From Lenzites betulinus (taxonomy: Eukaryota > Basidiomycota > Agaricomycetes > Polyporales > Polyporaceae), in the NCBI GenBank assembly GCA_022264855.1, contig JABYQU010000038.1, positions 248,001 to 312,000 of the forward strand: a stretch of 64,000 bases of DNA, read 5' to 3'. Both the position numbers and the translations under genes were made by a program. Within the stretch, counting starts at the first letter, position 1; the number at the start of each line of letters is the position of its first letter. Below, one piece after another: positions 33,001 to 64,000 of this stretch. The notes under the pieces are model-generated. The model saw only the letters and a list, made by a program, of their open reading frames with translations. It ran no database searches and was not told the origin of the DNA.

Positions 33001-34050
33001 TGCCAGGGAACGCTTGGATGTGTCCCTTGAGCTCGTTCTCCCAGCCCTTTCTCACAGCCTTGCTGTCGCGGAGGACATCTGCGCGTGTGTTAGCGGGTAC
33101 AGTCCCGGCCTTGAGTGCAAGAGGGGAGGCCTTCGTAGCCATACCTGACTCGTAAGAGGTGCTGCAGCACGAGCGTGTTGAGATCGACATATTTATAGTG
33201 GCTTGTAGAGGGGGGAGGCTGAGGGAGGCTTTTAGGAATTAGTGGCCGGTGGCCGGTGGTGGTTGAAATGAACAATGAGAATGCGTTCAAGCGCCGAGGA
33301 GGGGAAGACTATGCGTGTCACGTTGCTCTGACTGGGTTTATCATCAGCTCAAAGATCTTTTATCTGAGGCCCGCCATGGCTTCGCTTAAACAGCCGAAAA
33401 CATGCCCACCTGGTCAGCCTTTTGGGTAAAATTTGGGGTGATCGGGCGATTGTCTATGCCTTATTCAAGGCAGAAAGGCGGAGCTGGGCTGAACACGGGC
33501 GGCGCGCCATGGTTGTGGACAATGGCCATTAGCGACTCGTTTGCATTGTTTCGCGAGTCACTCACAATATTAGGTCCGATAGCTTTTGCGGGACCCTGCA
33601 AGTCGCTTCCGGGGCTTGATGTCTGCTGGTGGAAATCTGCTACGACCGCGAAGATGACAGAGAGCCCCGGGGTCGCGCTGAGAACGCATACGTCAGCATT
33701 ACACTCTTCATTTGCATTAAATGTTGCGCACATTGAACGAGGTAACGAGATATGAAGCTCCGGACGGCTGCGCCTCGAGCTGAGCGTGTTGACGTTGAAC
33801 TTGGTCCACGGGCGCCTGTGGGCTGCTTGTCTCTCGGCGCGTATTCGCAAATACGCTAACCGACATACGACTCGCCTCCTAACCTTGCTGAGCTCTGCCT
33901 AATTAAGTACTATGAGCTATCCGCGTACCACATGAGCTTGTTGCGCATTCAGAACTGTGGGTGTGTCCTACGATCGCGACTCCCACGTTGAACTTGCTGA
34001 CTCTTCCGCAAAGGGACGTTCGGGTTTTGCCGAACGTTAATCTCGCCACT
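30091..34050 (-). repeat. Full-length copy of the FunK1-bearing duplicated segment
   Basis: Reverse-complement partner of 17171-19276. It holds the complete kinase gene plus about 0.9 kb of 5' flank and 0.2 kb of 3' flank shared with the other copy. Because it contains the whole gene, it is the better candidate for the parental copy. The two arms are about 11 kb apart in opposite orientation. An 11-bp difference near the outer edge (an extra CGAACGT-containing stretch at about 34010-34025) and scattered substitutions show the copies have diverged. Confidence 0.85.
30299..33190 (-). CDS. Fungal-type protein kinase (FunK1 family)
   Basis: Member of FunK1, a kinase family expanded in multicellular basidiomycetes. 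Exons: 32873-33190, 31506-32814, 31225-31448 and 30299-31171, all keeping frame, about 907 residues. Key features are a long N-terminal region (GYPHLL-type junction, AGLNRLVAAFEADKKLSFGD, PDIAISFPGEG, VIEVKATEGEDPFPRIGDKH), the central HSGVATMVCGGDIGKLE and MRMVINKVGRPL, the catalytic loop VLHRDVSLGNILI, the DFG-equivalent LHDFDYSS, and GTYYFMAMELILAAPGTIHD in place of the usual activation-segment end. LESFYWVVIWVVLRH follows, and the Pro/Arg-rich tail includes PRRGPVSRVRRSASIRRQPT. The catalytic H-R-D and metal-binding D are present, so activity is plausible. The first exon may hold another intron (GTATGG...CTAAC...GCAG, about 33075-33143), which would also keep frame, so the N-terminus is uncertain. 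No target is known. Confidence 0.85.
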
Positions 34051-49340: not shown

Positions 49341-50377
49341 TCATATCCTGCCATCTGACAACCCGAGCCCAAGTGTCTTCAAAATCCCCCGACTCGTAGC
49401 CTCGTCGAACTGCATCAGTCGTCCCCCGTCACCGCGTACCACATGCTCATATGCGTAGTCCTGTACCTCCAGGACGACATGGGTGAGTCTCGGGGAATTC
49501 TCGAACAGGGGCGGGAAGAGACGGGAGGCAGTGAATACCAGTCGGATTCTCTCGATCCAGTCCTCTGCGACATAGTTCTCGTCTTTCTCCTCCGCCTTCA
49601 GGCCACTGTAGTTGAGAGCCAGTTCTTCATCGAACACCTTACGGTGCAGGACACGGATAATGAGGAACTGGATCGGGTGGCTATTTAATAAGCATATGAG
49701 GCTATTCTGGGTACCTACAGTCAGCGTCGTGGTAGGAGTCGTTGATGTATTATGAGCCACTCACGTGGTGCTCACGCATTGTGCCCGCTATCAATCGGCC
49801 ATCCAGGTTCACCGCCAGGTGCGTGATGTTCGATCCCTCGAATGGCAGGCAGACGGCAAGGTCCGAGCCGAAGAACCAAGGATCGCCAAGAGGGTGATAG
49901 ACGTACACGCCGGGCACACCGATATGCAGCACCAGGTAGTTCGGCAGCGCACACGAGACCACCGTACGCAGCCGCCGGAGCAGCGTGACGTCGGAGTATA
50001 TGCGGTACACCTCGAGGACCTTCGCCACAGGAAAGCCACCGAGCGCGTAGAGCGCGTTCACGGAGCCGCACATACGATCAAGGGCACCCCATGGGTTATC
50101 GAAAGCGAAGGTCTCGGCGTGAGCTCGAAAGTGTTCTGCATCGAGGTTGTCTTCCTTGATGGAGATCTCCAGATGTCGAATGACAGGGAACATAGTATAC
50201 AGTGTGGTGACTCCATCTTCAAGGTACTCGAGGTTACGGAGGGCGAGTGCACGGAGCTGATCGAAGGTCACCCACTTCTCGTCTGAGTCGTCTGAGCCAT
50301 CGTCATCACCGGCGCCGGCGGTCTCGTCGTAGCCATCGGTCTCGTCGTAAGCATCGGTCTTGTCGTCACCATCGTTG
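49341..50377 (-). pseudogene. F-box-like gene, 3' part, cut by the LINE insertion
   Basis: The C-terminal part of a third F-box-like/leucine-rich gene. Two coding blocks: 50377 down to 49765, and 49341-49706 after a 58-nt intron (GTGAGT, GCTGAC branch, CCCAG acceptor), which keeps frame. It begins in an Asp-rich segment (NNDGDDKTDAYDETDGYDET), then WVTFDQLRALALRNLEYLED, VIRHLEISIKEDNLDAEHF, a long leucine-rich middle, ITHLAVNLDGRLIAGTMREH, FLIIRVLHRKVFDEELALNY, WIERIRLVFTASRLFPPL and the end ILKTLGLGLSDGRI. Upstream of the Asp-rich segment the frame runs into the poly-T tract of the retrotransposon. The 5' part of the same gene reappears at 63932-64000 in the matching frame. Apart from the insertion the coding sequence looks intact, so inactivation was probably recent. 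Confidence 0.8.
50364..50377 (+). repeat. Target-site duplication, left copy
   Basis: CGTCACCATCGTTG (the match extends to 16 bases if the first two T of the poly-T are counted) directly abuts the poly-T tract. The identical sequence is at 63932-63945. It is the insertion signature of target-primed reverse transcription. Confidence 0.88.
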
Positions 50378-50402
50378 TTTTTTTTTTTTTTTTTTTTTTT
50401 TT
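50378..50402 (-). other. Poly-A tail of the LINE (poly-T on + strand)
   Basis: Twenty-five uninterrupted T on the + strand, equal to a poly-A 3' end of a minus-strand element. It lies about 100 bp past the stop of the RT ORF and next to the target-site duplication. Confidence 0.92.
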
Positions 50403-50501
50403 GGTGCGCCCTGGCGCGCGAGCTACAAGCCCTACGCCAGGTAAGCAGTGGTTTGGGGGGGATCGCACCCCGGCACCATGGGGGAAATGCTTGATGCACG
50501 C

Positions 50502-53500
50502 CTATGGCAGTGTGGGACTCCTCCGTTGCGGACCAGGTATGTGTTGGAGTGTACCCACTAAAACCCCCTGTGTTTTGATCCAGTTCTCCGGTAAGGCTCT
50601 TTCGTCATGCAGCGTCCCCTTCCACGTGCTCAGCACGGTCTCCGGGGGGAGCCGCTTTCTTGCACCTTTGTATTTCGCGCGGAAGATATCGATCTTAAGC
50701 CGCTCGTTTATCACGTGTTTCCACTTCCCCGCCACTTCCGCGTTTGTGTGTACTCTAGTTGGTTGCTCTGCGGCCCACCCTATGACTCTCTCACATCTTA
50801 TCTTCCATATCAGGTGCACTGCTTCGGTCATCACTATTCTCGTTAGTCTCGTTTTTCCATTCTGTTCCTCGTCCACCAAGGCGTCAACGGTAGTCGATGC
50901 CGCTCCCAACACTGCTCCAAGTGACAGCCTCGGCGTTGGTGCTCCCCCTGCTCTCAACACATGTCGCACCTCTTCCCATATTTCATGTTGGCCCGGGGCA
51001 CTGCATTGCAGGAGGATGTGCTCCATAGATTCCTCGACTACGCAGCTCCGACACACCCCGCGATCCTCGTATCCCTCTATGTTACTCCAGTATGACCCTA
51101 CTTTGTAGGCACCATGTATTGCTTTCCAGAGGAAGGCGGCTGCTCTCTTTCCTACGTCCTTCGCCCATATCGCTCGCCAGATCGTTGCGGTTGTTGGGTC
51201 ATGTTTATAGTCTTCTCGCATCGCCGCTTTTATCATTTCTATGTTCCGCTCAGTTGTGTGCCTATCTACGCGTCCCCCCCACGCCAGTATTCCTTTGTAA
51301 GCCAGTTTCTGCGTCATTGTCGCCAGCTTTGCTCCTTTGGCAAGGAATCCCTTCTCGTTCTCTGACCATTCAACCTCAGCGCTAGGCTCACCACGTGTGC
51401 CCTGCTCGGCCAATCTGTCCGCTCCTTCATTTCCATCATCTCCGGAGTGGCCTTTTACCCACCTCAGCCAGGTGGGTGCGCTTCTCTTTCGGAGCTTCGC
51501 AATCGTGTACTGAAGGACCTCCTTATTTTCCACTCCTATCCAGCCCCTGTTTTCCCAGGCTTGCAGGTGCTCTGTTAGTCCGTTGTACATGTACGTGGAG
51601 TCGGTGACTATAGTAAGTGGTGCGAAGGTGGGGGTGATTTCCGCCGCGAGCGCGATTGCGTATGCTTCCCCTGTTTGGTTCGATTGTCGGGGTCCTGGGA
51701 CCCGGCGCGCAGCGTTCCTGTGGTCGTTGTGTCCAAAGTACACCCCGGCTCCCGCTTTCGCATTATCCATGCCGTTGTTCATGCACGAGCCGTCGGTGTG
51801 TACTTCCGCATGCTCTTCTCTCACCTGATACTGTCTCATTCTCCTCTTCGCAGGTGCATCTTCGGCCTCCCCTTCTTCGACGAATACTCGGAAGGCCGAG
51901 GCAATCGGGCCTTCATGGGATGTGGCCGGGTCGAACAGCGTATCCCCCCTCTCCATCCTTGCCATTCGGTTTACCTCCAGTCTCGTCGGGGTTAGACTCA
52001 GTCCATCGTCCTCTTTCGCAGACGGCCTCCACTTCTCTCTCAGTTTTTTGATCATTTTTTGGGCCGCTCTCGCACACCATGGGGGGTGCGTGCATTGTAT
52101 TTCCAGGCGCATCTTCTCACACCACTGGCATTGGCAGCCTTCTTTGTCAATGTGCGCCGCGCATTCCTTTGCTTCGCTGGATATTCTGACGCAGTCTGCC
52201 ACAGTGTTCACTCCGTGCCTGTTTCGGAGGCACTTCCCGGTGCGGGAGTTCGCACTACTTCTCTTCTCTACCAGCCCGAAGTGGTACCATATCGGTAGCT
52301 CACGCTTGAGCCTCTCTTTGGGGTTCGGTGCGTCGACCTTCACTCCATATTTCCTGGCTGCCTTGATCATTCTCCCTAGGTCACTAGGTAGGCCTGCGTT
52401 CGCAGAGGCATTCACTTCCCACGTCTGTAGGAAGCAGTTTATGCGCGCGTTCGCCTCGACTCTCCTCGACGTTGCTATCACCGCTCGTTCGATTATCGCG
52501 TCCGCAACGTATGCCCATCTTGGCCGGCTCGGGGATATATCCAGATATTCTTTCAGCCACATCAGGTCTAGGGCCTCGTTCCTTGCTTGCACGTCAAGCA
52601 GTTTTATTCCCCCCTCCTTTAGGTCTCCTGTCATGATCGCCTTTGCGACTCTCGGTTTTGTGCCGTCCCACACGAAGTCCGATATCATTTTGGTGAGTTT
52701 TTTCTCCACCGTAGCCGGCATGCCCTGTACACGGGCCAAGTATTGTGTTCGTCCCCCCACCTCCATGTTTATTATGAGTCTCTTGCCGGCCAGGGTCGGG
52801 CGTCTTCTCTTCCATCTTTCGAGCCCTTTCTCGGTGGTTTGAATAGTCTTGTCCCACACTGCTCCGTGGTCAATTGCGGTGCCAACCCAGGCCCCTAGCA
52901 TCCTCGTTGGTTCACCTTCGTTTAGTATTTTCAGATCCTCTGGCAGCCGCCCGCCTTCTGGTGACAGCCTTTTCGTCGTGCGTAAGTTCTCTCGGTATTC
53001 TTTCGACCCGATCGGGATCAGTTCCGTCTTGGGCTCATTGAATTTTGCCCTGGATGCCGCGCACCAGGTTCTCAGTACGTCTTCCATGTCATGGTAGTTA
53101 TCCCGTTCGTTGAGGTATACCGTAGTGTCGTCAGCGAATAACGTTGTTATCAGACGTTCTTCTAGCCCGGGGATCTGGAATCCGGCGAGGTTCGAGCGGC
53201 GTAGAGCGCATGCTAGCGGCTCGATGGCGATGTTGAACAGTAGACATGACATCGGGTCGCCCTGCCTGACGCCCCTCGTGACTGTGAAGAATTCGCTTGT
53301 AACTCCGTTCAGCATCACCGTGCTTCTCGCCGCATGGTATAGGTGCTTGATCGTGTTTATGAAGCGATTGGGGAAGTTGGCGTGCTTCATGACTTCCCAC
53401 AGATAGTCATGGTTTATCCGGTCGTAGGCCTTTTCTTGGTCTAGTGCTACAATTGCACCTCCCATGCCCTCTGCTTCAGCGTACTCCACCATCATCCTCG

Positions 53501-55727
53501 TGAGTTTAACGTTCCCATGGATCTTCCTCCCTTTAACAAACCCAGCCTGATCGGGGTGTATTAGTGTCTCTGCTACCTCCGCAAGTTTCGTTGCCATTGC
53601 TTTTGTCATTATTTTGTAGTCAGCGTTGAGTACCGTTATCGGTCGATAGTTGCTGACTATTCGCTTGTCTCCTTTTTTATAGATGGGGCACACCCAGCCG
53701 TCCGTGAAGGTCGTCTTTGGCGTCACGCCGTACATTTCGATGTCGTTGAAAACCATTTGCATCATTTTTGCAACATCGAAGGTCTGTTTCCCCGCCGCAG
53801 CGTCCTTCGTGTGTTTCGCGGTTAGGGTCTGCCACAGCTCGGCTGTTAGCCCGTCCAGCCCGGCCGCCTTGTTCTTCGCCGTCTCCTCCATTGCCTCCTC
53901 TACTTGCAGGCGGGTGAGCCTTTTGCCTATTATGTCTTTCTGTCTCGCCGTTAGTTTCGCCGCAGCTGGCTGGAGGGCTTTATCTATCGCATCGTTGTGG
54001 GTCGATGGTAGGTCCTTCATGTCATCTGTTTGGAGGCCGTCGTAGTGCTCTTTAGCCACGTTCGCCATTCCTTTCGAGCTCGATACTAGGTTCCCGGTTG
54101 TCAGTCCCCCCGGCCACAGCTCGTAGAAGGGTGTGTTTGTTCGTCTTGTTTTGCCTTGCATTGTCCAGAAGGCGCTCATCGTCTCGCCTTCAACCCATTG
54201 TTTCATTCTAAGTTCCTCTCTTCGGTATTCAAATCTTTTTTCTTCGATTTTCGCGAGCTTGTCCTTTAGCAGTGCGGAGGTTTCCTTAGCCTCTTCTTCG
54301 CTCAGTCTCTTTGTCCTTATTTCGTCGTTCAGGGTTATTTCAATCTCCTTTCTCAACTTCTCGATCTTCTTGTCCCATTTCGCAAACAGGACTTTCGACC
54401 TCTTTCTCGCCATATCTCGTATTTCGTCCTTAAGCCGTTGGTATATTAGTTGCACGTTTTCAGTCTCACTCCTGCTTGTTAAGTTGTCCGCCTTCATCAC
54501 TGCCGCTCGTCCGGCTGTTACGGTTGCGTCGATGAATTCATGGTCTTGTAGGATGGATTTCGTTATCGTCCATCTACCCTTTCCGATGTACGGTGCTGCG
54601 TAGTTCGCTATCGATACTGATGCCATTAGGTGGTCCGTTTTTACTCCAGATCCAGTCAGCGTCCAGTCGGCCGCCTGGTACTCTAGGTCGGTTTTGATGT
54701 ATATTCTATCTATTCTTGACTGACTCGCCGTACTTGTTTGGAGGAAGGAGTAACACCGTTTGTCTGGGTTCATGTTCCTCCATCCGTCAGTCAGCCTAAG
54801 GGAGTTTAGCAGGTCGTTCAGCGCCTCCACCGGTTCGTCTCGGTCCTTTCGTATTGGGAGCCTGTCGAGAGCATCCGTCACTATGTTGAAGTCGCCCAGC
54901 AGTACGTCCATTTTGCAGGTGTCGTTCTCGTCTGTCATGTGCTTTAGCTTCCTCCAGAAGTTCGCGTTCTCGTGAACGTCGTTGGGGGCGTAGACGTTCG
55001 TTATTTTCAGTTTGCTTCTCCCACTCCAGTTGATTGTGACACTCATTGCTCGTCCCGGGACTAGTACTTCCACATTTGTTTCGGCATCCTCGCTCAGAAG
55101 ATTTTTGTTTAACACTATCGCCACCCCTCTCGCCATGGTCGGCACCTGCGGGTCAGGCGATGCCAGTACACGTAGGGATGACTCGAAGAGTTCGTTCAGT
55201 CTGTCTGCTTTCTCGCATGTTAGGTGCGCTTCTTGTATTGCAAGGGCGGTGAGTCGTGATTCTTTCATAACTTGGTTTATTCTCAACCATTTGTCGCTGA
55301 TTCCGTTCGTCTCGCCACTTCCCAGTCCTCTCATGTTCAGGCTCGCAATCCTTACTCTCGCGCTGGTTGTGTTTTTGTTCTTCACAGGCCTAGCACCGCG
55401 TCCGGTCTCCTGCGCTACGTCGGCTCCTGTCCTTCCACTCAGACGGCCGGCCGTGGTGCTATGTCTGTTGTACCTTTCTCTGCTAGCATTCAGGGTTCCC
55501 CCGCGGCCCGCCGCGTGGTTGCTGCCACCGGTGCCGCCGGGCCCATCACTAGAGCCGGCCTCGACAGCAAGGGGGTCGGCCCTTCCGGGCCCATCGGTCA
55601 CGTTTAGCCAGGTGCCGGGTGTACATTGCCAGGTGTGTGATGTTGTTTGTGTTTGTTCAGTAGCTGTCATGCCCCGTGAGGTACAGCGATCGCTCATGGG
55701 CGCTGCGACCGGCAGCTCGGTTATCAC
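50502..55727 (-). CDS. LINE ORF2: endonuclease, reverse transcriptase, RNase H
   Basis: Uninterrupted 1741-residue polyprotein. The N-terminal 120 residues are low-complexity. An AP-type endonuclease occupies about 125-375: RIASLNMRGLG, QEAHLT, LLGDFNIVTDALDRLP (about 275), SRIDRIYIKTDL and TDHLM. A charged helical linker follows, then the reverse transcriptase about 640-960: NYRPITVLNADYKIMTKAMA (about 691), HPDQAGFVKGRKIHGNV, VALDQEKAYDRI, GVRQGDPMSCLLFNIAIEPL and the catalytic FADDTTVYL (about 863). RNase H lies about 1305-1440: HTDGSCMNNG, GEAYAIALAAE, IVTDSTYMYNGL, WVKGHSGDDGNEGADRLAEQ, so the D-E-D-D set is complete. After it comes GVCRSCVVEESMEHILLQC, a zf-RVT-like CX2CX7HX4C (about 1555). 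All catalytic residues are present, so the enzyme is probably active. Confidence 0.95.
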   Translation of the reverse strand: MITELPVAAPMSDRCTSRGMTATEQTQTTSHTWQCTPGTWLNVTDGPGRADPLAVEAGSSDGPGGTGGSNHAAGRGGTLNASRERYNRHSTTAGRLSGRTGADVAQETGRGARPVKNKNTTSARVRIASLNMRGLGSGETNGISDKWLRINQVMKESRLTALAIQEAHLTCEKADRLNELFESSLRVLASPDPQVPTMARGVAIVLNKNLLSEDAETNVEVLVPGRAMSVTINWSGRSKLKITNVYAPNDVHENANFWRKLKHMTDENDTCKMDVLLGDFNIVTDALDRLPIRKDRDEPVEALNDLLNSLRLTDGWRNMNPDKRCYSFLQTSTASQSRIDRIYIKTDLEYQAADWTLTGSGVKTDHLMASVSIANYAAPYIGKGRWTITKSILQDHEFIDATVTAGRAAVMKADNLTSRSETENVQLIYQRLKDEIRDMARKRSKVLFAKWDKKIEKLRKEIEITLNDEIRTKRLSEEEAKETSALLKDKLAKIEEKRFEYRREELRMKQWVEGETMSAFWTMQGKTRRTNTPFYELWPGGLTTGNLVSSSKGMANVAKEHYDGLQTDDMKDLPSTHNDAIDKALQPAAAKLTARQKDIIGKRLTRLQVEEAMEETAKNKAAGLDGLTAELWQTLTAKHTKDAAAGKQTFDVAKMMQMVFNDIEMYGVTPKTTFTDGWVCPIYKKGDKRIVSNYRPITVLNADYKIMTKAMATKLAEVAETLIHPDQAGFVKGRKIHGNVKLTRMMVEYAEAEGMGGAIVALDQEKAYDRINHDYLWEVMKHANFPNRFINTIKHLYHAARSTVMLNGVTSEFFTVTRGVRQGDPMSCLLFNIAIEPLACALRRSNLAGFQIPGLEERLITTLFADDTTVYLNERDNYHDMEDVLRTWCAASRAKFNEPKTELIPIGSKEYRENLRTTKRLSPEGGRLPEDLKILNEGEPTRMLGAWVGTAIDHGAVWDKTIQTTEKGLERWKRRRPTLAGKRLIINMEVGGRTQYLARVQGMPATVEKKLTKMISDFVWDGTKPRVAKAIMTGDLKEGGIKLLDVQARNEALDLMWLKEYLDISPSRPRWAYVADAIIERAVIATSRRVEANARINCFLQTWEVNASANAGLPSDLGRMIKAARKYGVKVDAPNPKERLKRELPIWYHFGLVEKRSSANSRTGKCLRNRHGVNTVADCVRISSEAKECAAHIDKEGCQCQWCEKMRLEIQCTHPPWCARAAQKMIKKLREKWRPSAKEDDGLSLTPTRLEVNRMARMERGDTLFDPATSHEGPIASAFRVFVEEGEAEDAPAKRRMRQYQVREEHAEVHTDGSCMNNGMDNAKAGAGVYFGHNDHRNAARRVPGPRQSNQTGEAYAIALAAEITPTFAPLTIVTDSTYMYNGLTEHLQAWENRGWIGVENKEVLQYTIAKLRKRSAPTWLRWVKGHSGDDGNEGADRLAEQGTRGEPSAEVEWSENEKGFLAKGAKLATMTQKLAYKGILAWGGRVDRHTTERNIEMIKAAMREDYKHDPTTATIWRAIWAKDVGKRAAAFLWKAIHGAYKVGSYWSNIEGYEDRGVCRSCVVEESMEHILLQCSAPGQHEIWEEVRHVLRAGGAPTPRLSLGAVLGAASTTVDALVDEEQNGKTRLTRIVMTEAVHLIWKIRCERVIGWAAEQPTRVHTNAEVAGKWKHVINERLKIDIFRAKYKGARKRLPPETVLSTWKGTLHDERALPENWIKTQGVLVGTLQHIPGPQRRSPTLP

Positions 55728-56020
55728 TTATGCACGTTAGGTGTCCAGCCACCGTGAGTGCTTCAGCCTCTCGGCACGGCGCGTGATTGACCTAAATAGG
55801 TCTCCGTTTGTTTCGCGTACCCAGGACGCTTTCCTGCACCCTTAGGCCAGTGTATTTGGGCGTCCTGGAGACCACCCATTTGGATCATCTGCTGGGTCTG
55901 ATCGCGCGTGGGTTCACCCTTGGTCAGTGGTTGAGGTGGGTGGGCGTATACTGCCATGTCTTGTTGTCTCTTTCTTTAGGTTTTGGTATACGCGCAGTTT
56001 GTCTGTCTACTCAAAGTATA
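55728..56020. other. Spacer between LINE ORF2 and Gag-like ORF
   Basis: About 290 bp without a recognisable domain. A 64-residue minus-strand frame (55763-55957) is open but shows no motif. How the downstream RT ORF is translated is unclear; no frameshift overlap joins it to the Gag-like ORF. Confidence 0.5.
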
Positions 56021-57433
56021 CTAGCCGAGGTAACTTCCTGGCGGCCCAGGATACATTGGGGCTCTCCCTTGTCCGTAGTTACGTCCGCCTCTGCTCATCA
56101 TGCCACCTCTTCCTCTTCCTCTCTGGGAGGCTCCCACTCCCATGCCGTACATCGGTGCCGTCGTCTGGGCCTGTTGTCTCGGTCGTCCGAACATCCTTGT
56201 CTCCGGCTGCGGGGCCCTCCATCCAGGTGTGCTGGGGAGTCGGCACATGTGCGTGACATGGTCCGCGCTATGGCAGCATCCGCACAGCTCCAGCGGTCGT
56301 GCTGTTGCCGTCGGGTTGTATTGGCTCTCGAAGGGGAGGGTCATCAGGTTTCGGCGCCACTCGAGCCACCGGCTGCTAGAGGTTGTGGGTGAGTCACAGA
56401 AGACAGCGGCATGGAGGTTCCCGTTGTTCAGCTTGTCGATTCTCACTGTCAGGGTCGAGAGGATGAGGGCCGCGGCTTCGTCGGGTGCGAGGTCTGTCAG
56501 CCCGGGGTGTTCGCTCGTTAACTCTATGATGGAGGTGAGGACAGGGTCGCTCGCGAAGGTTTCTTGTACTGCGGCGCTGATGTTGTCGTCGTAGTTGTTG
56601 GTGAAACCCGTAAGTGTGAAGAGATAGCGAGGGATGACCAGCTTCCTTTCGTAGACGATGATCGAGACCCAGTCGGACGACAGGATTCTCTTCTCGACTA
56701 GGTTCGCCACAGACGTGACATCCAGTCCCAGCGCGGCCCAGGTGCGTGGTGTTCCTCGTCGTGCCGGCGGTTCTACCCACTCCGGCTCCGGCGCGATGAC
56801 TACGAAGTTCGTTTCTCCGGTTTGCGCTCGTATCAGCCCAGTTATTTCGACCGTGAGGGCGGCTTTCTGCGAGGGAGAGGGGTAGCCCACGTTCACGACG
56901 TGTATCAGTGCGACACGTCCTTGTTCTTGCTTCCAAAGATCGTTCACTCGTCGTTGGGCCAGCTCCTCGGTGAGGCTCTCTGGCCTGGCGTGATGTATTT
57001 CTGGGAAGCCACCCGTAGGCGTCGGGGTCACCGCGTACTCCTCTTCTTCTACGACTGCCGATAAGGTCTGCGTCTGTCGTGTCGCGGTGTCGCCGCCTAT
57101 GTCTGCCGGTCTGTTCATGGGTGCCGGGGTGGCCCGTCGGCCGGTATCGTGCAGCGGGGTGCCTCTACTGCGCGGGGCTGGGGGGGCTATTGCGGTCGGG
57201 GTAACTTCTACGTTCCTCAGTGCCGACCTTGCGTCCAGGCGAGGGGGGCGTGCCGCCTGCTCTATCGGCGCGTTGGGGGGGTTCCTTCGGTGGGCTTCAG
57301 CCGGCTGTATCGTTCGCTGCTCGTCCTCCGGTGGGTCAGTGTCCATCAGTTCTTCGGCCACGCCGGGCGTCGTCGTGCTCGTCTGTGCATAGTCCTCGTC
57401 GCGGAGGTGTGGGGAGGGTGGTCTGGCCCACAA
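56021..57433 (-). CDS. Gag-like nucleic-acid-binding protein of the LINE, copy 1
   Basis: 470-residue ORF1/Gag-like protein expected to bind the element's RNA. The N-terminal 150 residues are Pro/Ala/Thr-rich. A folded core begins at GGFPEIHHARPESLTEELAQ and includes WVEPPARRGTPRTWAALGL, SSDWVSIIVYERKLVIPRYL, FTLTGFTNNYDDNISAAVQE and AAVFCDSPTTSSSRWLEWRR. It ends in one zinc knuckle, C-G-C-C-H-S-A-D-H-V-T-H-M-C (CX2CX4HX4C), and a Gly/Arg-rich RNA-binding-like tail (GASQRGRGRGGMMSRGG). Core order and knuckle match the ORF at 58701-59714, so the two are paralogues. It lies 69 bp downstream of the 277-residue ORF on the same strand. Confidence 0.8.
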   Translation of the reverse strand: MWARPPSPHLRDEDYAQTSTTTPGVAEELMDTDPPEDEQRTIQPAEAHRRNPPNAPIEQAARPPRLDARSALRNVEVTPTAIAPPAPRSRGTPLHDTGRRATPAPMNRPADIGGDTATRQTQTLSAVVEEEEYAVTPTPTGGFPEIHHARPESLTEELAQRRVNDLWKQEQGRVALIHVVNVGYPSPSQKAALTVEITGLIRAQTGETNFVVIAPEPEWVEPPARRGTPRTWAALGLDVTSVANLVEKRILSSDWVSIIVYERKLVIPRYLFTLTGFTNNYDDNISAAVQETFASDPVLTSIIELTSEHPGLTDLAPDEAAALILSTLTVRIDKLNNGNLHAAVFCDSPTTSSSRWLEWRRNLMTLPFESQYNPTATARPLELCGCCHSADHVTHMCRLPSTPGWRAPQPETRMFGRPRQQAQTTAPMYGMGVGASQRGRGRGGMMSRGGRNYGQGRAPMYPGPPGSYLG

Positions 57434-57501
57434 CGGGATTGCCGTGCTTGTCGACGTCCCCTTTGCTGGGGCGGCCGCCTGCTCGTCCGATTAGCTACTT
57501 C

Positions 57502-58335
57502 TTATTTGCTTAGCGTGGGTCGTACCTTCAGAAGGTTGGCGCTGCTCTGCCTGCCTCTGTTCTCTGTTCCTCCTCCTCGCGGTGTGCCTCTCCCGCTGTT
57601 GCCACTACCTTGATTGTTCGGTTCGCAACCTCTCTCTCTAGGCGACGCTGTTCCGGACGACTCTACCCATTCTTCTACTCTGCTGAAGGGGTTGAAAGGC
57701 GGGGGTGGGCCGGTACTGGGAATGGGGCGATATTTGCGAAATCTGATTGATATCTTCTTCGGCTCCTTGGTGTCTTCTTCCATCCTCTGTCTCTTCCGTT
57801 TCCTCTCTTCCTCCAGCACCTGTTCATGTCCTGGGAGTGGGTGGCCATGGCGGTCCATGCCGTCAGTGACATACTTCTCCAGGTCTCCTCCGAAGTGCGC
57901 TATGGTCTCGCCCAGGCAATCGCGCACCGCTTCGGAGCACATACTGTCGTCGCCGTGTACTGACAAGTTCTTCCAGTCTTCCAGCGTCGGGTAGCCGTAG
58001 TGCATGATCGCCTCCCTCTCCTCCTTCTCTCGCAGCTTGAGCAGTTCTGGGCTCACCACGAAGTCGTTCGTGTCCGATGCTTCGTTGTCGCTCGGTGGTG
58101 TCGGGTCGGCATGCTCTGCGCGGTTTGATCTCGGTGTCCGTGCTCCTACGTTCGGCTCGGGGCTGTCCGTTTGCTCGTCGTGCTCGACCATTTCGTCGGC
58201 CTCTGCTTCGGGTGCTCTGGGCGCCCGTCTGCGTCTAGGGGTCCTCGGTGGGGATGCGGCGACCTGCGCGTACGTGGGCTTCGTCGCGTTCTTCGCAGGG
58301 GGTTCCGGCGTAGCGGGGCGGGCTGGGGAAGACAT
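57502..58335 (-). CDS. LINE accessory ORF, basic and coiled, TYAQVA start
   Basis: 277 residues, not assigned to a family. Begins MSSPARPATPEPPAKNATKP then TYAQVAASPPRTPRRRRAP; a (S/T)YAxVA motif near the start is a recurrent feature of retroelement Gag and ORF1 proteins. A helical acidic middle (ELLKLREKEEREAIMHYGYP, SEAVRDCLGETIAHFGGDLE) is followed by a very basic stretch EEERKRKRQRMEEDTKEPKK that could be nuclear-localising, and a Gly/Arg/Asn-rich tail. Probably an RNA-binding or nuclear-import helper, by inference from composition and position between two Gag-like ORFs. Confidence 0.65.
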   Translation of the reverse strand: MSSPARPATPEPPAKNATKPTYAQVAASPPRTPRRRRAPRAPEAEADEMVEHDEQTDSPEPNVGARTPRSNRAEHADPTPPSDNEASDTNDFVVSPELLKLREKEEREAIMHYGYPTLEDWKNLSVHGDDSMCSEAVRDCLGETIAHFGGDLEKYVTDGMDRHGHPLPGHEQVLEEERKRKRQRMEEDTKEPKKISIRFRKYRPIPSTGPPPPFNPFSRVEEWVESSGTASPRERGCEPNNQGSGNSGRGTPRGGGTENRGRQSSANLLKVRPTLSK

Positions 58336-58700
58336 TGGGATTTAGAGTGTTGCTTAGGTTGCTGCTGAGTTGCTTGTTCACGTTCGTATTTATGTAGTGT
58401 CCATTAGGCGCTCTCATTCCTTTGTCGCCCGTGTCCTTTCGGTTTGCTTGCGTTTTCGTCGTACTTCTGCGCGTCTCCTTCGCTATGTATCAGTCATCGC
58501 GTCCAACGTGCAGCGTCTCTGGTGCATCCTGATCACACACCTATGTCTGGTGACGCTCTTCAGCATTTCGGCTGCCTCATGTTCGCTAGCTCCAATTCTC
58601 ATTCGGGCGTTAAGCGGTTGTGATTGCACTTCAAGATTGTCAAGGGGTATGTACAGCACACTAGCCAATCTCCTTCATCCATAGTCCTCTACTCCCGCGC

Positions 58701-59714
58701 TTACATGTCAGCGAGGGTGCTCGTACCTTTCCACCCTGGGTACCGTCCTTTGTCGTACGGGCATGTTTTCGTTGTGTGGTCAGCTCCGTGGCATCCTCCG
58801 CACCGGATGTCCGCCCGTGCTGGCCCTGTCGCAGATTCGAGTTTGATTGCGGCCATCGCGTCCCTCCACCTTATCCATAGCTCGTTATTCTTCGTCGGGG
58901 GGTCGCAGTAGACTAGCGCGAACTCTTGTTCTGCGTCAGCGTAGCGAGCCGGCTTCATTGTCGTGAGTTTGACTCGGAGTGACGTCGCAATCGTCTTTGG
59001 CCCATCTTCGAGGTTGTATCGAGCAAGGGGGTCGCCTCTGAGTACGATTTTCGTAGCTTCTGACGCCTTTCCTGACACTAGGGACCTCGCGAGTTCTTCG
59101 CGTACCGCCTCCGCAGTGTCTACTGTTACTCCGGCTAGCGCGTAGAGGAAGCGTGGGGGGAGTGGTTCTTCGTCTAGCGCACGGAAGGAGGCTAGAGTTG
59201 TGTCCCACATCCTCTGCGTCCTGAGGATCGTCGGGGATCCGGGTGGTAGTCTGTACACCATGTAGATTGTGGACGATCCTTCCTCGTGCCAGTCTGCCGT
59301 TATCGCTGCTTCGGGGTGCGTAATCTGGATCCTTTTCCCGCCAGTGATCGTCGCCAGGACTGCCCTCAGGTTGCTTTCCAGCTCGCTGGCCTGCGTCGGT
59401 GTACTTGGGGGGGTGCCGAAGATGTCGACCATACATGTCGTGTCTGCTGGGCGTTGGAGGAAGCGCTTCAGCTTGTCTCGAGGGATACGTCTTAGATGGT
59501 CGTACGGGTCTCTGGCGTGGACCTCCGGGTATCCCTCCGGTGGCGGTGGTGTGACATTGAGTGCCCCTTTCCTCGTCAGGAATTCTGCTCGTGTCTCCGT
59601 TGGGTTCTGCCGGTCGCCACCTCTGTCGGCCGTTTCGCCGTCTTCTTTCGCCGGTCTCCTCACAGTTGCTCCCTCCTCCCTTGTGTTCTCTTGTTCGTTC
59701 TTCTTTTCTTCCAT
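58701..59714 (-). CDS. Gag-like nucleic-acid-binding protein of the LINE, copy 2
   Basis: 337 residues. Lys/Glu/Arg-rich start, then a core beginning EGYPEVHARDPYDHLRRIPR and containing CMVDIFGTPPSTPTQASELE, SSTIYMVYRLPPGSPTILRT, LPPRFLYALAGVTVDTAEAV, LVYCDPPTKNNELWIRWRDA. It ends in the zinc knuckle C-G-G-C-H-G-A-D-H-T-T-K-T-C (CX2CX4HX4C) and YPGWKG. Motif order matches the ORF at 56021-57433 (GG/EGxPExH, PR(F/Y)Lx(A/T)LxG, CDxPT...W..WR, C..CH.ADH). It lacks the long Pro-rich head and the Gly/Arg tail of that paralogue. Confidence 0.78.
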   Translation of the reverse strand: MEEKKNEQENTREEGATVRRPAKEDGETADRGGDRQNPTETRAEFLTRKGALNVTPPPPEGYPEVHARDPYDHLRRIPRDKLKRFLQRPADTTCMVDIFGTPPSTPTQASELESNLRAVLATITGGKRIQITHPEAAITADWHEEGSSTIYMVYRLPPGSPTILRTQRMWDTTLASFRALDEEPLPPRFLYALAGVTVDTAEAVREELARSLVSGKASEATKIVLRGDPLARYNLEDGPKTIATSLRVKLTTMKPARYADAEQEFALVYCDPPTKNNELWIRWRDAMAAIKLESATGPARADIRCGGCHGADHTTKTCPYDKGRYPGWKGTSTLADM

Positions 59715-60020
59715 TCCTTCGCTTCGGGTTTGGGAGACTACACGGCACGGTTTCGGCGACGTGTCTTATCTGTCAGTTTACGAACGCACCAGTTATTCGC
59801 ATGGCTCACCGGTGTGTTCGCCCGCTTGTTCGCTCCTGCTATCCTCCAGCTCGTTTTCTTGGAATCTCCGCGTCCCTGCTAGCTCTTCGCGTGCGTTGAT
59901 GGGTGCGTTCCTTTCCTCTCTCCAGGGGCCTACACGAGTCGTGTCCGGGTGTGCTGCATCCTGCGTTGCTCCTAGCAGTCTCAGTGTTAGTCTGCGTTTC
60001 GTTGTCGTCTGTCCGCCGAT

Positions 60021-60488
60021 CTAGTGTGTCGTACCTCTCGCTTGTTCAGCTCTCCCGACGCACTCTGTCTGCATTATTGCCTGTAGTTCCTTTTCGAGGC
60101 CGTCCGTCTCTGCGCTCGGTACGTCTTCTGGTTCCCAACCCTGCGATTCGGTCGCCTCGCGTGCCACCCATGTCGTCGCGTATCGATCCACTGTTACCTC
60201 CACCCCTCGTTTGGCCAGTTCACCTTGGGCCGTCCTGATTAATTGGATCATTTTCGTCATGTTCGGCTTCAGCTGCAGCCCGCGTGGTTCGAAGAAGAGG
60301 GGCGATAGGGGTCTGGCCTCCGTTTCATTCGTGTCGGGGAGGGGTAGGCTCTGGGGGGCGGTACGGGGTCTCTTCGCTATCGACGACGCTGTCGGGGATG
60401 CTTGTCTCTTCGTCAAGGTCGCTTCCGGTGTGTTGTCTTCGTTCGTTTCGTAGACATTTGTCTCCTGCGCTCTGTTTGCGTCGTTCAT
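60021..60488 (-). CDS. LINE accessory ORF, unknown function
   Basis: 155 residues, MNDANRAQETNVYETNEDNT at the start, an SSIAKRPRTAPQ patch resembling a nuclear localisation signal, and a helical C-terminal half (MIQLIRTAQGELAKRGVEVT, DGLEKELQAIMQTECVGRAE). Its first 164 bases overlap the 3' part of the next upstream ORF in another frame. Frames 60325-60792 and 60021-60488 could be joined by a +1 shift or by splicing around AAGGTGAGTAACAG near 60500, giving one larger protein. No family recognised. Confidence 0.55.
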   Translation of the reverse strand: MNDANRAQETNVYETNEDNTPEATLTKRQASPTASSIAKRPRTAPQSLPLPDTNETEARPLSPLFFEPRGLQLKPNMTKMIQLIRTAQGELAKRGVEVTVDRYATTWVAREATESQGWEPEDVPSAETDGLEKELQAIMQTECVGRAEQARGTTH

Positions 60489-60792
60489 ACTTGTGTAGTC
60501 TGTTACTCACCTTTATGCCATAGCGTTTGTTGGCCGTGTCTATGGCTCTTCGCCCTCGTTCCTCCTCTGGTCCCCTACGGCTCTCGTGCTGGCTATCTTC
60601 TATCTCCTTCCGCCATCCTTCTTGAAACCGTTTTTTGTTCTCTAGCTGTTGCTCGTGCGTCTGGGGGGAGCCTGCGCCAGAGGACGCGGGGTTGGAGTCG
60701 GGCGTTGGTGGAGTGGTCGGAGTATACTGGTACGTTCGGTGTGGCCTGCTCTCGGCTCCGTCGGCTTTTGCCTTGCCGAGTCTCGCGTCCAT
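60325..60792 (-). CDS. LINE accessory ORF, Pro-rich, overlapping the next ORF
   Basis: 155 residues beginning MDARLGKAKADGAESRPHRT. A Pro/Thr-rich section (YTPTTPPTPDSNP) is followed by a strongly charged helix (EQQLENKKRFQEGWRKEIED, GPEEERGRRAIDTANKRYGI). The portion after KRYGIK overlaps the downstream ORF, is less protein-like, and may not be used. No family recognised. Confidence 0.5.
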   Translation of the reverse strand: MDARLGKAKADGAESRPHRTYQYTPTTPPTPDSNPASSGAGSPQTHEQQLENKKRFQEGWRKEIEDSQHESRRGPEEERGRRAIDTANKRYGIKVSNRLHKYERRKQSAGDKCLRNERRQHTGSDLDEETSIPDSVVDSEETPYRPPEPTPPRHE

Positions 60793-61883
60793 ATCTTGTT
60801 GGCTTCTACTGTCCGGCAGTTTCCTGACGGTTCTGGGTCGAGTCCGTTGCTGCGGTTAAGCGGGCGGGAGAAGCAGGAGAGGAAGAGGCGGGGGGCAAGG
60901 CCGACGTCCAGCGCGCGACTCAGCGTCAGCTTCGTCGTCGCTTTCATGCAGTTCCTCGGTCCCTTCATGGTCGGTGGCATCGTCGGCGCGTCGTTCGGGC
61001 ATCTCGATGGGGAGGGTGGGGTTCCAAATCCGCAATGCTTGCCGTTTGCACTGCGCCGTTGTTTGTTCCTATTTGGTTTCTCTGTTTGCCACCTTGGAGC
61101 TAATCTGAGATTGCTCAACGTTCTCTCTTGCTTGCGGCAGGTGTGGTTGCCGTGTATGTTGTCCTGTTCGGTATGTCCGAGCTCCCTACTCTTCGTGTGT
61201 TTTCTGTTGTTCTAGGTGACCTCATTTCTTTTCTGTTTACGTTTCTCTTTCCTAACGCCTTTTCATCAGGGTTCCTTCGCACATCGTCTGATTAGTATGA
61301 TTGCCCTTAGGCATCTTGTTGCTCATGATTATTCGCCGGCACTCTGTCGTGCTGATCGTCTTTCCCTACAATCCTCTTTTGCGTGTGCAGGTATGCCTTA
61401 TGTTCTATTTGTTTCCTGCTCCGTCTTATCTCGTCATCTTTCTTATCCATTGTCGGATGTGCTTCCGGCCATTCCGATGCTTCCGTTAATTTGTTATTTC
61501 ATTCGATGCGGTGCGGTGTGCTCGGCAGCCTATCTCATCTGCCGGCCGCCCCGCCTCGTCTCGTCTCCTCTGGCCGCTGTCCGTTCTCATGTCATGCTGT
61601 TCTTCCGTTTTGTTTCTATTCTTGTGATCGTTCATCTCTCGGCCTTCGCGTGTTCCCAGTTTCGACTTATTCAGCGGTTTCGGCGGTCGGCTGTCTGTTT
61701 CTCATCTTCCCCTGTCTCTGTCCGTGTTCATGCGACCTCATTGCATTGCTAGCGCTGGTCTTTGTCACCCTCCTCCGCCTCGTCTCTATCTGTGCCTCTC
61801 TATTTAGTGTCCTGTCTCCCTCTCGCTGTCCGTCGTCACCTCCTTCTTCTTCGTCGCCGTCGCCTGCTCGGTCTCCCTTCTTC
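60793..61883. other. LINE internal spacer, no clear gene
   Basis: About 1.1 kb. The + strand is very T-rich from 61200 to 61850, so the element's sense RNA would be A-rich there. A minus-strand frame at 60642-61118 overlaps the next ORF out of frame and has little protein character. This could be an untranslated or internal regulatory stretch. Confidence 0.45.
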
Positions 61884-62387
61884 CTACTCTCCGTTTTTCC
61901 CGTCGTCATCCTCTTCGCCGCTCCCTTCATCGTCCAGCACCGGTGTAGACGACTCCGCTGGGATGGACCTCGTGGTCTTCATCGTCCAGTGCGACAGCGC
62001 TAGGAGCGCTTTGGTGTACCATGGGGGGTTCGCTGAGACTCCTGGGATGTACTGGACTGCAAGGTGTGCGTACTCCGCCGCCGTTTCTGGCACGGTGTTC
62101 TTCACCGTCATCTCGAGGATGCCAGGTCCCGCTACCTTCATCTCTGTCACTGGCCCTTCTATTCCGGTATCCCGTGCGACGAGAGTGGCTGGTTCGTCGT
62201 TGTCTGGGCTGGTTGCGGGGGGGTTTGCGGTCACGCTGTAGATGCTGACATATTCCCCCAGTTCGATCGGCGTCGCTGGTTGTATCGTCACGTCCATCCA
62301 CACGTTTTCGCGGCGAGTTAGCTGGTTGGGGATGTGGGACGGCGCTGAACCCCTTAGTCGTGCGTAGACTGTGATGTACTTGTTCAT
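61884..62387 (-). CDS. LINE first ORF, unknown beta-rich protein with acidic tail
   Basis: 167 residues, MNKYITVYARLRGSAPSHIP at the start. The sequence alternates hydrophobic and polar residues (WMDVTIQPATPIELGEYVSI, EMKVAGPGILEMTVKNTVPE), suggesting a beta-sandwich-like fold, then a short helix (WYTKALLALSHWTMK) and an Asp/Glu-rich end (DDEGSGEEDDDGKNGE). It is the first clear ORF from the element's 5' end. No family recognised; it has no zinc knuckle. It could be a capsid-like or host-interaction protein, but nothing in the sequence proves that. Confidence 0.55.
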   Translation of the reverse strand: MNKYITVYARLRGSAPSHIPNQLTRRENVWMDVTIQPATPIELGEYVSIYSVTANPPATSPDNDEPATLVARDTGIEGPVTEMKVAGPGILEMTVKNTVPETAAEYAHLAVQYIPGVSANPPWYTKALLALSHWTMKTTRSIPAESSTPVLDDEGSGEEDDDGKNGE

Positions 62388-63931
62388 CGTGGAGGGTGGT
62401 TGAGGGAGTGGGGGGCAGTTGCTCCACAGGGTTCATCTGTGCTTATATAACATTTCGGCATGGATTTCTTCCCCTATCATATTTCTGGCACGTCTAGGCT
62501 TATCTTCTCTTCTCTCCTTCCCACTCTGGATTTTGTCCACGTGAGTCACTTTGTCAGGTATTGTGTTCCCTCTCTTGGTGTGTCTTGTTACGTGGCGACA
62601 TTTGCCTGTCACCTCTGCATGTTCTTTCCGGCTTCCCGAACTTGGTTTCATTGTGACGTGTGGCGTACCTCCTTGTTCCATTCTTCTCTTCTTCGCCAGT
62701 CTTACACTCCTTTTCTCAGTCTGTACGCCGTAGCTTATAGCGTGAGGGGCTTGGAGGCGCCGCTTGCATAGTCAGTCTGATGTAGTCTGTATTAGCATGC
62801 GTAATGGGTAGACTCGTCCCCTACGGCCGCTAGTAGGTGCTGCGCGAGAACGACCAACGAGCCAGACCGCTAGGTATCAAGGAATAGTGTAGACATTAAG
62901 GGGATGGTGATAGTATGATGGCCGCCTTGGGACCGCATAATACCCTCGTAATAATCATGAGTCGTGGAGCACTACAGATTCCTGTTGGACCTCGGCACAG
63001 TCCTTACGTGTATAGCCATACGGCTGGAAGTTCACCCCCTTTGTCTGCTGAGCCGGCATACTCGAGTACCAGTGCAGGCGAGGACCGTGACCGCTAGGGC
63101 AGTACTTCGACGCTAGGACGTGGTGGCCCGCCCGAAGGTGGCTGGCTTCCTGTACAAAGGGCGGGAGATAATTACCAGCAAGGGGCGGGCACAAGTGGGA
63201 TATAGTCAGGCCAGGGTATAGATTTACTGGAAGTAATGAGGGGTATGGTACAGGCTTCGACTTGCTTCATGCGCGGCGCCACAGGGCGCTCACATGGGAG
63301 GATGGGTGCTAAGTCGCATCACTCTCTGGCGGCTCTCCGAAGCCTTGTATGTATTGTACGACTCGTCCGCTGCTCTTCAGACCTTCCATAGATGCGCGTT
63401 ATGCTGTTTGGGGCGTGATTTCAGCCCTGGTGGTATGAGTGACGGCACCATGGACACGTATGCGCTCAAATACTACATCTTTCGGGTAGGTTTCGTTTGT
63501 GGGCTGACACTCATTGTTGTTTGGTTAGTTCCTGGTCATAGTGAATGTGCCCGCTTCGCTCGCGACACAGGGTTTGTACTCATTGCATTCTTGCGCTCTT
63601 AACCTTCGGCAGGCACGTGCACACACTCGGCGTCTCCGTGACCCTTCTGGTTAGGGTTCATTGGCGTCTTCATCTCTGTGCCTCCCCTTCAGCCCGGGGG
63701 CTGTTATTCCCCTGGGGGATTTCTCCGGAGAGCGTGTCTTACTTGTGTTGTGTGGTATAGGCGTGGAGTCCCATGGGTTTGTATCATACCGTCTCACTGC
63801 CTCACTTGTTTCCTGCACATCTGGTCGTGCCTCTTTTCTTCTGTTATGTTTGCCATATTTCGCGTGTTCTCTTTTCTTGGGCGTGTTCGTTGCATTTGGC
63901 CCATTTGCTTGCGATCTTGTGTTCTCGTGTG
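62388..63931 (-). promoter_or_regulatory. Putative 5' leader of the LINE
   Basis: About 1.5 kb between the 5' edge of the insertion and the first clear ORF. Only short minus-strand frames are present (for example 62433-62681, Lys/Arg-rich). Non-LTR elements carry an internal promoter at their 5' end, so it should lie here, but I recognise no specific promoter sequence. Confidence 0.4.
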
Positions 63932-63945
63932 CGTCACCATCGTTG
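63932..63945 (+). repeat. Target-site duplication, right copy
   Basis: CGTCACCATCGTTG, identical to 50364-50377. Past it the host coding frame (Asp/Asn-rich on the minus strand) resumes. Confidence 0.88.
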
Positions 63946-64000
63946 TTGGTTCCGTGGTTGCCGTCGTTGTCGTCATCGGCGTGGTCGACGAGGTCGGCGT
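63932..64000 (-). pseudogene. F-box-like gene, 5' side of the insertion (partial)
   Basis: On the minus strand the last bases of the window read D-A-D-L-V-D-H-A-D-D-D-N-D-G-N-H-G-T-N-N, which runs through the duplicated site into the D-G-D-D-K-T-D-A-Y of 49765-50377 in the same frame if the insertion and one copy of the duplication are removed. The N-terminal part of the gene lies beyond the window. Confidence 0.7.

Follow-up and report, generated by a model that had tools for sequence, protein, structure and literature searches.

Elements of the LINE class, copying themselves via RNA, are expected to lose introns. For fungi, PMC4427930 names the LINE clades Tad, Deceiver and Inkcap and describes a Tad-like element with two ORFs of 572 and 1312 aa. 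Penelope-like elements, which carry a GIY-YIG endonuclease according to PMC3846280, are retroelements whose association with intron retention is stated there and in a title cited in PMC5718144. Finally, PMC5408684 attributes large size and extra ORFs to the Terminons and the multi-ORF retroelements of bdelloid rotifers. A full-text literature search, judged by titles and the beginnings of abstracts and with subscription papers mostly outside its range, returned no LINE with two Gags or with introns.

Here we analyse a stretch of 64,000 nucleotides from the basidiomycete Lenzites betulinus (the window), in which positions 50380-63931 are a single insertion of a large, multi-gene LINE, that is, of an APE-type non-LTR retrotransposon.

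The insertion and its relatives in the genome

The element occupies 13,552 bp on the minus strand as one unit (Table 1). It is bounded by the 16-nt repeat CGTCACCATCGTTGTT, which is found exactly at 50364-50379 and 63932-63947 with a spacing of 13,568; no other pair in the five repeat families that were listed between 48 and 64 kb is 100% identical. Among the repeats listed only this duplication frames the element, which has no LTRs in that list and in this respect agrees with a LINE. The T-run that represents the A-tail of the minus strand directly adjoins the 50364-50379 copy of the repeat and reaches 50402. When the flanks are joined without the element and one repeat copy, a 482-aa open frame spans the insertion site; from reading its sequence we take it to resemble an Agaricomycete F-box-like protein. 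The minus strand is A-rich across most of 50.4-64 kb; its AT skew, taken in 200-bp steps, lies mostly between -0.2 and -0.7, is weaker at 50.4, 53.2, 56.6 and 63.2 kb and is lost at 62.8-63.2 kb. The original prediction of a single LINE insertion of about 13.55 kb, with a 14-16 bp duplication at both ends and a poly-T at 50378-50402, is borne out by the one exact 16-nt duplication, the A-tail directly beside it, the endonuclease-RT-RNase H protein and the restored host frame. Also supported are the unusual length and the presence of two Gag-like proteins together with additional coding sequence, and the recent mobility that had been proposed agrees with the perfect duplication and the intact Pol frame, which would fit a recent event. 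Elsewhere in the window, 17171-19276 and 30091-34050 are connected by two inverted repeats, one of 1.2 kb (92%) and one of 0.9 kb (83%), and weaker direct repeats lie near 14950-17083 and 19475-21612, perhaps belonging to another repeat or gene family.

Table 1. Features of the LINE insertion and its flanks, in minus-strand order of the element (window coordinates)
Feature	Position	Strand	Basis or remark
Target-site duplication, 5' side of element	63932-63947		exact match to 50364-50379; flanks joinable in frame
5' untranslated region	62388-63931	-	without the ~103-nt 5' module; contains a stretch resembling a ~490-bp genomic repeat
ORF1, 167 aa	61884-62387	-	all-beta domain predicted for residues about 5-113; acidic tail
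Putative Gag1 exon 1 (155-aa ORF)	60035-60488	-	motif like LxQIVxxGLxxLAxxG, read by eye
Predicted Gag1 intron, 63 nt	59972-60034	-	GTACGA..CTAAC..TAG
Predicted Gag1 exon 2	59810-59971	-	intron chain
Predicted Gag1 intron, 45 nt	59765-59809	-	GTGAGC..CTGAC..AAG, weak acceptor
Gag1 main exon, CCHC knuckle	58701-59764	-	337-aa ORF from ATG at 59714
Putative Gag2 exon 1 (most of 277-aa ORF)	57526-58335	-	frame and splice prediction
Predicted Gag2 intron, 47 nt, phase 0	57479-57525	-	GTACGA..CTAAT..CAG; its removal would give a 755-aa Gag2 frame
Gag2 exon 2 with Gag core, CCHC knuckle and RG-rich tail	56021-57478	-	ORF list, genome matches
Pol, 1741-aa open frame, first ATG near 55697	50502-55727	-	Pfam, PDB
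Pol AP endonuclease	about 55280-54669	-	Pfam Exo_endo_phos, E 2.8e-07, residues 150-353
Pol RT	53678-53016	-	Pfam RVT_1, E 1.2e-35
Pol RNase H	51812-51396	-	Pfam
Pol zf-RVT	51194-50997	-	Pfam, just below curated cut-off
3' UTR	50403-50501	-	conserved among copies: GTGCATAAAGCATTTCCCCC-like stretch, GCACC-like end before tail
Poly(A) tail	50380-50402	-	T-run on plus strand; extra A/T bases common to tail and duplication
Target-site duplication, 3' side of element	50364-50379		repeat listing
Interrupted host gene, downstream part	49750-50363	-	other part beyond 63947

A search of the 37.4-Mb L. betulinus genome with Pol scored 27 RT loci among 110 candidates, which is a lower bound. The order ORF1-Gag1-Gag2-Pol, with the 277-aa part also in its place, recurs at 12 of the 27 scored loci, namely in the window copy (W) and in the copies labelled C1a, C35, C25, C16a, C1b, C30, C65A, C65B, C28, C19 and C32. 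Ten further copies, eight of them from this set (C1a, C35, C25, C16a, C1b, C30, C65A and C65B among the double-Gag loci, together with C76 and C37) were read over their length, in pieces. In nine, a poly(A) is followed by an exact repeat of the sequence upstream of ORF1 of 12-21 nt (C1a, C35, C76 and C30 16; C25 15; C1b 12; C37 17; C65A 21; C65B 14), several of these matches including A's of the tail; in the tenth, C16a, neither tail nor duplication was found. The distance between the duplications of these copies ranges from 11,808 to 14,266 bp. It amounts to 13,351 in C1a, 13,223 in C35, 14,266 in C25, 14,118 in C1b, 14,007 in C30 and 14,048 in C65B, and in C65A to 28,253, or 14,205 after subtraction of C65B, which is nested within its Gag1 and has its own duplication. 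C76 (11,808) and C37 (12,285) contain ORF1 and only one Gag. The further copies with the same ORF order and their own duplications for which the original prediction had asked are present, two of the ten copies read being single-Gag. Its proposed counter-evidence, occurrence of the 56-64 kb part without the RT and with its own duplications, was not encountered in the ten copies read, as the 5' part (ORF1, Gag) is followed by an RT in each. At C70 and C24, outside the copies read, 5' parts occur without a scored RT. Two pairs of Gag-like matches have scores that are equal or almost so, C65:961866 with C65:993508, inverted and 32 kb apart, and C18:350595 with C65:647993, which suggests recent duplication.

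Coding content and predicted introns

Pol contains an RT domain and, upstream of it, an AP-type endonuclease (Pfam), an arrangement that assigns the element to the LINEs. Its best PDB match is human L1 ORF2p (E 3.2e-47, residues 123-1048), L1 endonuclease structures match too, and no other endonuclease, GIY-YIG included, was detected in Pol by Pfam at E <= 0.1. The RT region is matched by 1047 proteins; many of the best 120 of these are nameless, and the top-scoring named ones are from Trametes. The expectation that the element ends in a complete AP endonuclease-RT-RNase H protein holds for the three domains, but the copy may be incomplete, the 5' module being absent. At the other end of the coding region, ORF1 has 21 matches in its own genome, itself counted, and a profile search of proteins found relatives in L. 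betulinus only (four proteins, the window's own among them); neither Pfam nor the PDB search revealed any relation. Its AF2 model has a mean pLDDT of 61.5, both predicted structure models made being of low confidence, and ORF1 is read as a small, presumably beta-rich orphan protein. The public protein record P0122, which corresponds to ORF1 of C35, ends unlike the open frame, as if there were an intron of ~54 nt (length by eye) near the 3' end of ORF1.

Seven separate minus-strand ORFs had been predicted. The ORFs are real, but their count as separate proteins was overstated, and they are better read as about four putative genes, ORF1, Gag1, Gag2 and Pol. Within this layout the 277-aa ORF is better read as a predicted first exon of Gag2. 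The junction of the 277-aa part with Gag2 was read in 11 of the 12 double-Gag copies; C32, which was left out, has its matches to the two parts in frames of equal listed length, 688 aa. Both parts share one frame in C25, C1b and C65B and are out of one frame in eight copies (W, C1a, C30, C65A, C16a, C28, C35 and C19), all eight of which contain a phase-0 intron candidate of 47-51 nt. A candidate was called strict when it followed GTRNGN..CTRAY..YAG. In six of the eight copies the candidate joins the Gag2 parts, five times in strict form (W and C30 47 nt, C28 49 nt, C1a and C65A 51 nt) and once in relaxed form (C16a, 49 nt, acceptor AAG); C16a and C35 have no strict candidate. Splicing out that of C35 (48 nt, branch CTCAC) would eliminate the stops and place the motif VEVLPSFL in frame, but a new stop then follows 34 residues from the start of this motif, before the Gag core. 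The strict 48-nt candidate of C19 is stop-free and in frame and removes nothing, the break lying further downstream. VEVLPSFL or a variant of it enters the frame on splicing in C30, C65A, C35 and C16a. C28 was fetched after the intron rule had been fixed, and its junction fitted the rule. Among the copies with one frame, a 54-nt phase-0 candidate free of stops is present in C65B, and no convincing candidate was found at the junction in C25 and C1b.

Dinucleotide shuffles of the local sequence (1500 trials, four strict copies) produced a strict candidate of 40-60 nt in 0.07-0.9% and one of 40-90 nt in 0.07-2.6% of cases. A blind count of frame-joining candidates over all pieces gave 8 in sense and 5 in antisense orientation, and looser limits gave 9 sense donors as compared to 16 antisense; overall, the sense strand is not clearly richer in such candidates. 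Only the test at the Gag2 junction supports introns, so the case for them rests on the place, length, phase and frame of the candidates there, and on these grounds splicing is predicted and introns in Gag2 are likely. For Gag1, whose first exon the 155-aa ORF may better be read as, the exon reading appears weak in comparison. In the window a single chain of the two predicted introns, the first strict and the second with acceptor AAG, yields a 559-aa frame. Of the eight double-Gag copies examined, C65B has one strict joining candidate, C16a has Gag1 in a single frame, and no strict joining intron was found in C1a, C30, C1b, C35 and C25.

In the six closest pairs of copies dN/dS was 0.15-0.26 for ORF1, 0.16-0.32 for Gag1 or the single Gag and 0.07-0.12 for Gag2, and 0.07 and 0.33 for the 277-aa part, the N-part of Gag2, in which the four other closest pairs were saturated; these values, which cover ORF1, Gag1, the Gag2 N-part and Gag2, are rough, synonymous divergence being >1 throughout. 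By this measure purifying selection acts on ORF1, Gag1 and Gag2. A tree of the Gags (39 rows) sets off both Gag1 (12) and Gag2 (13), each behind a branch at 100/99; Gag2 stands beside the single Gags and Gag1 apart, with neighbours at 75/50. As a second Gag, Gag1 is at a distance from Gag2. The RT tree (34 rows, 26 copies from the same genome and 8 proteins of other basidiomycetes) groups the double-Gag copies except C25 together with the truncated C31 at 95/76, below the two-value mark of the tool. The RTs of C25 and of the contig-edge copy C56 are nearly the same and are placed with the single-Gag copies at 100/97, and the 3' UTR of C25 resembles that of single-Gag copies as well. Because both its RT and its 3' UTR go with single-Gag copies, C25 is a chimera that combines a double-Gag body with an RT and a 3' UTR from the single-Gag lineage. 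The suggestion that the element has taken up extra genes holds only in part: Gag1 is a second, distant Gag and ORF1 an orphan, and architectures in between are found among shorter relatives in this genome.

The structured 5' module and the 5' end of the window copy

The other copies whose ends were defined carry at the 5' end a module of ~103 nt that is nearly invariant and structured. The sequence CTCTTCCAYGCACCAYCAYCTGGTCGC occurs at 15 genomic places without mismatch and at none with 1-3 mismatches, and a backwards control gave 0. At 13 of the 15 places the module lies upstream of an ORF1 match, and where the 5' end of a copy is defined (nine copies), no more than a few bases separate its start from the duplication. 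At C70:155053 and C77:2289 the module is exact but has no neighbouring ORF1 match. Over the 15 sequences, 96.3% of the cells of a three-helix structure are paired, as compared to 32-50% for slid versions, a figure biased in its favour by derivation of the structure from nine of these same 15 sequences. Two-sided changes occur in 6 pairs of the helices, helix 1 being invariant. When compared with shuffled partners, the module exceeds 500 of 500 in cells paired and in covariation score and all but 14 of 500 in pairs with two-sided changes; there is no excess of further pair types, for which 259 of 500 shuffles reach its value. When Rfam was searched for an HDV-like ribozyme or any other known RNA family, the 5' pieces of seven copies gave no match at E <= 1, and the 5' pieces of five more gave one match only, at chance level (E 5). 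At the opposite end the 3' UTR is conserved as well, in the window copy too, and a structure is predicted for it.

In the window the module was not found on either strand with up to 5 substitutions in 28 bases, and blastn detected no match of the window 5' UTR to nine other 5' UTRs. Because the module is absent and the 5' UTR matches none of these nine, the window copy appears to be either 5'-truncated or provided with a replaced 5' end. Window positions 63268-63566 are 75-77% identical to a repeat of ~490 bp at C47, C22 and C28, and the end of this repeat, as present at C47 and C22, is matched in inverted order by 62724-62835; these two genomic copies of the repeat are 99.8% identical to each other.

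Proposed cycle and relation to known elements

Taken together, we consider it very likely that the window carries a recent insertion of a large LINE family of L. betulinus with about four genes, which would multiply as follows. Transcription may start from a promoter located at the conserved 5' module or inside it. Part of the RNA would be spliced at the short introns, a step to which the junction sequences lend support, giving full Gag2 and in some copies full Gag1. Given this splicing step, unspliced RNA would be the template for new copies, because the inserted copies carry introns. The two CCHC Gags would presumably coat the RNA. Judging from its domains, Pol would bind the conserved 3' end and nick the target with its endonuclease, the poly(A) end could then prime target-primed reverse transcription, as domains and anatomy suggest, and the RNase H may help in second-strand synthesis. 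Insertion leaves the 12-21-nt duplications that are seen in the copies.

But could the same giant LINE do without introns? Its Gag parts might be made by programmed frameshifting, readthrough or re-initiation, or as separate proteins, and the intron-like stretches might be coincidental. A fungal LINE with two ORFs in different frames is described in PMC4427930, most copies examined lack a strict intron in Gag1, and in C19 and C35 the candidate does not remove the frame break. However, the joining Gag2 candidates of W, C1a, C30, C65A, C16a and C28 cover all three frame relations with a length that fits each, all eight Gag2 candidates are in phase 0 and 47-51 nt long, and local shuffles reach a strict 40-60-nt candidate in less than 1% per copy, so that we regard this explanation as improbable. 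That two or more adjacent or nested elements, or an assembly join, have been mistaken for one element is hardly credible: nested insertions do exist in the genome (C65) and the 5' UTR segment 63268-63566 is akin to a separate repeat of the genome, yet the same order is found in 12 loci, one duplication and one tail surround nine of the ten further copies, and removal of the element exactly restores the host frame. Equally remote is the idea that the element is a standard two-ORF LINE and that its upstream ORFs are remnants without function. The shorter single-Gag relatives in the same genome would be in line with it, but ORF1, Gag1 and the Gag2 N-part are under purifying selection and both Gags have been retained in the same order across deep divergence.

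Starting from the preferred reading of one large LINE with spliced Gags, we tentatively put forward a retrovirus-like gene economy, a possibility to which we give limited credence: the unspliced full-length RNA would be the genome, spliced RNAs of the same transcript would give rise to the two distinct Gags, and ORF1 and the 5' module would be candidates for the control of splicing. If so, some way to spare genomic RNA from splicing is required, and C25 and C1b, with their unbroken Gag2 and no intron candidate, would be candidate products of spliced templates, deletion of the linker being the alternative. How genomic RNA escapes splicing is a testable question. Two Gags, a conserved orphan protein and likely introns in a single LINE of 13-14 kb would illustrate how far target-primed retrotransposition can go in transporting additional genes, and with single-Gag relatives, C25 and C56 in the same genome the growth and reshuffling of its architecture should be traceable.

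Among known systems, the rotifer elements of PMC5408684 are telomeric or LTR elements, whereas the Lenzites LINE consists of fungal insertions with duplications, and Pfam finds in it no esterase or exonuclease ORF. Penelope-like elements are set apart by their GIY-YIG endonuclease, and the feature shared with them may be the keeping of introns only; membership of the Lenzites LINE in this group was considered and rejected, as Pol has an AP endonuclease instead (Pfam). Compared with LINE-1, whose ORF2p is the best match of Pol among solved structures, Pol has an added RNase H domain, and no sequence relation of the upstream genes was found by Pfam or, for ORF1 only, by PDB search. Like the fungal Tad, Deceiver and Inkcap LINEs, the Lenzites LINE combines AP endonuclease, RT and RNase H in one Pol and has a poly(A), an upstream ORF and a fungal host. 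Different from the two-ORF Tad-like element of PMC4427930, it is 13.5 kb long and contains ORF1, two Gags and likely introns.
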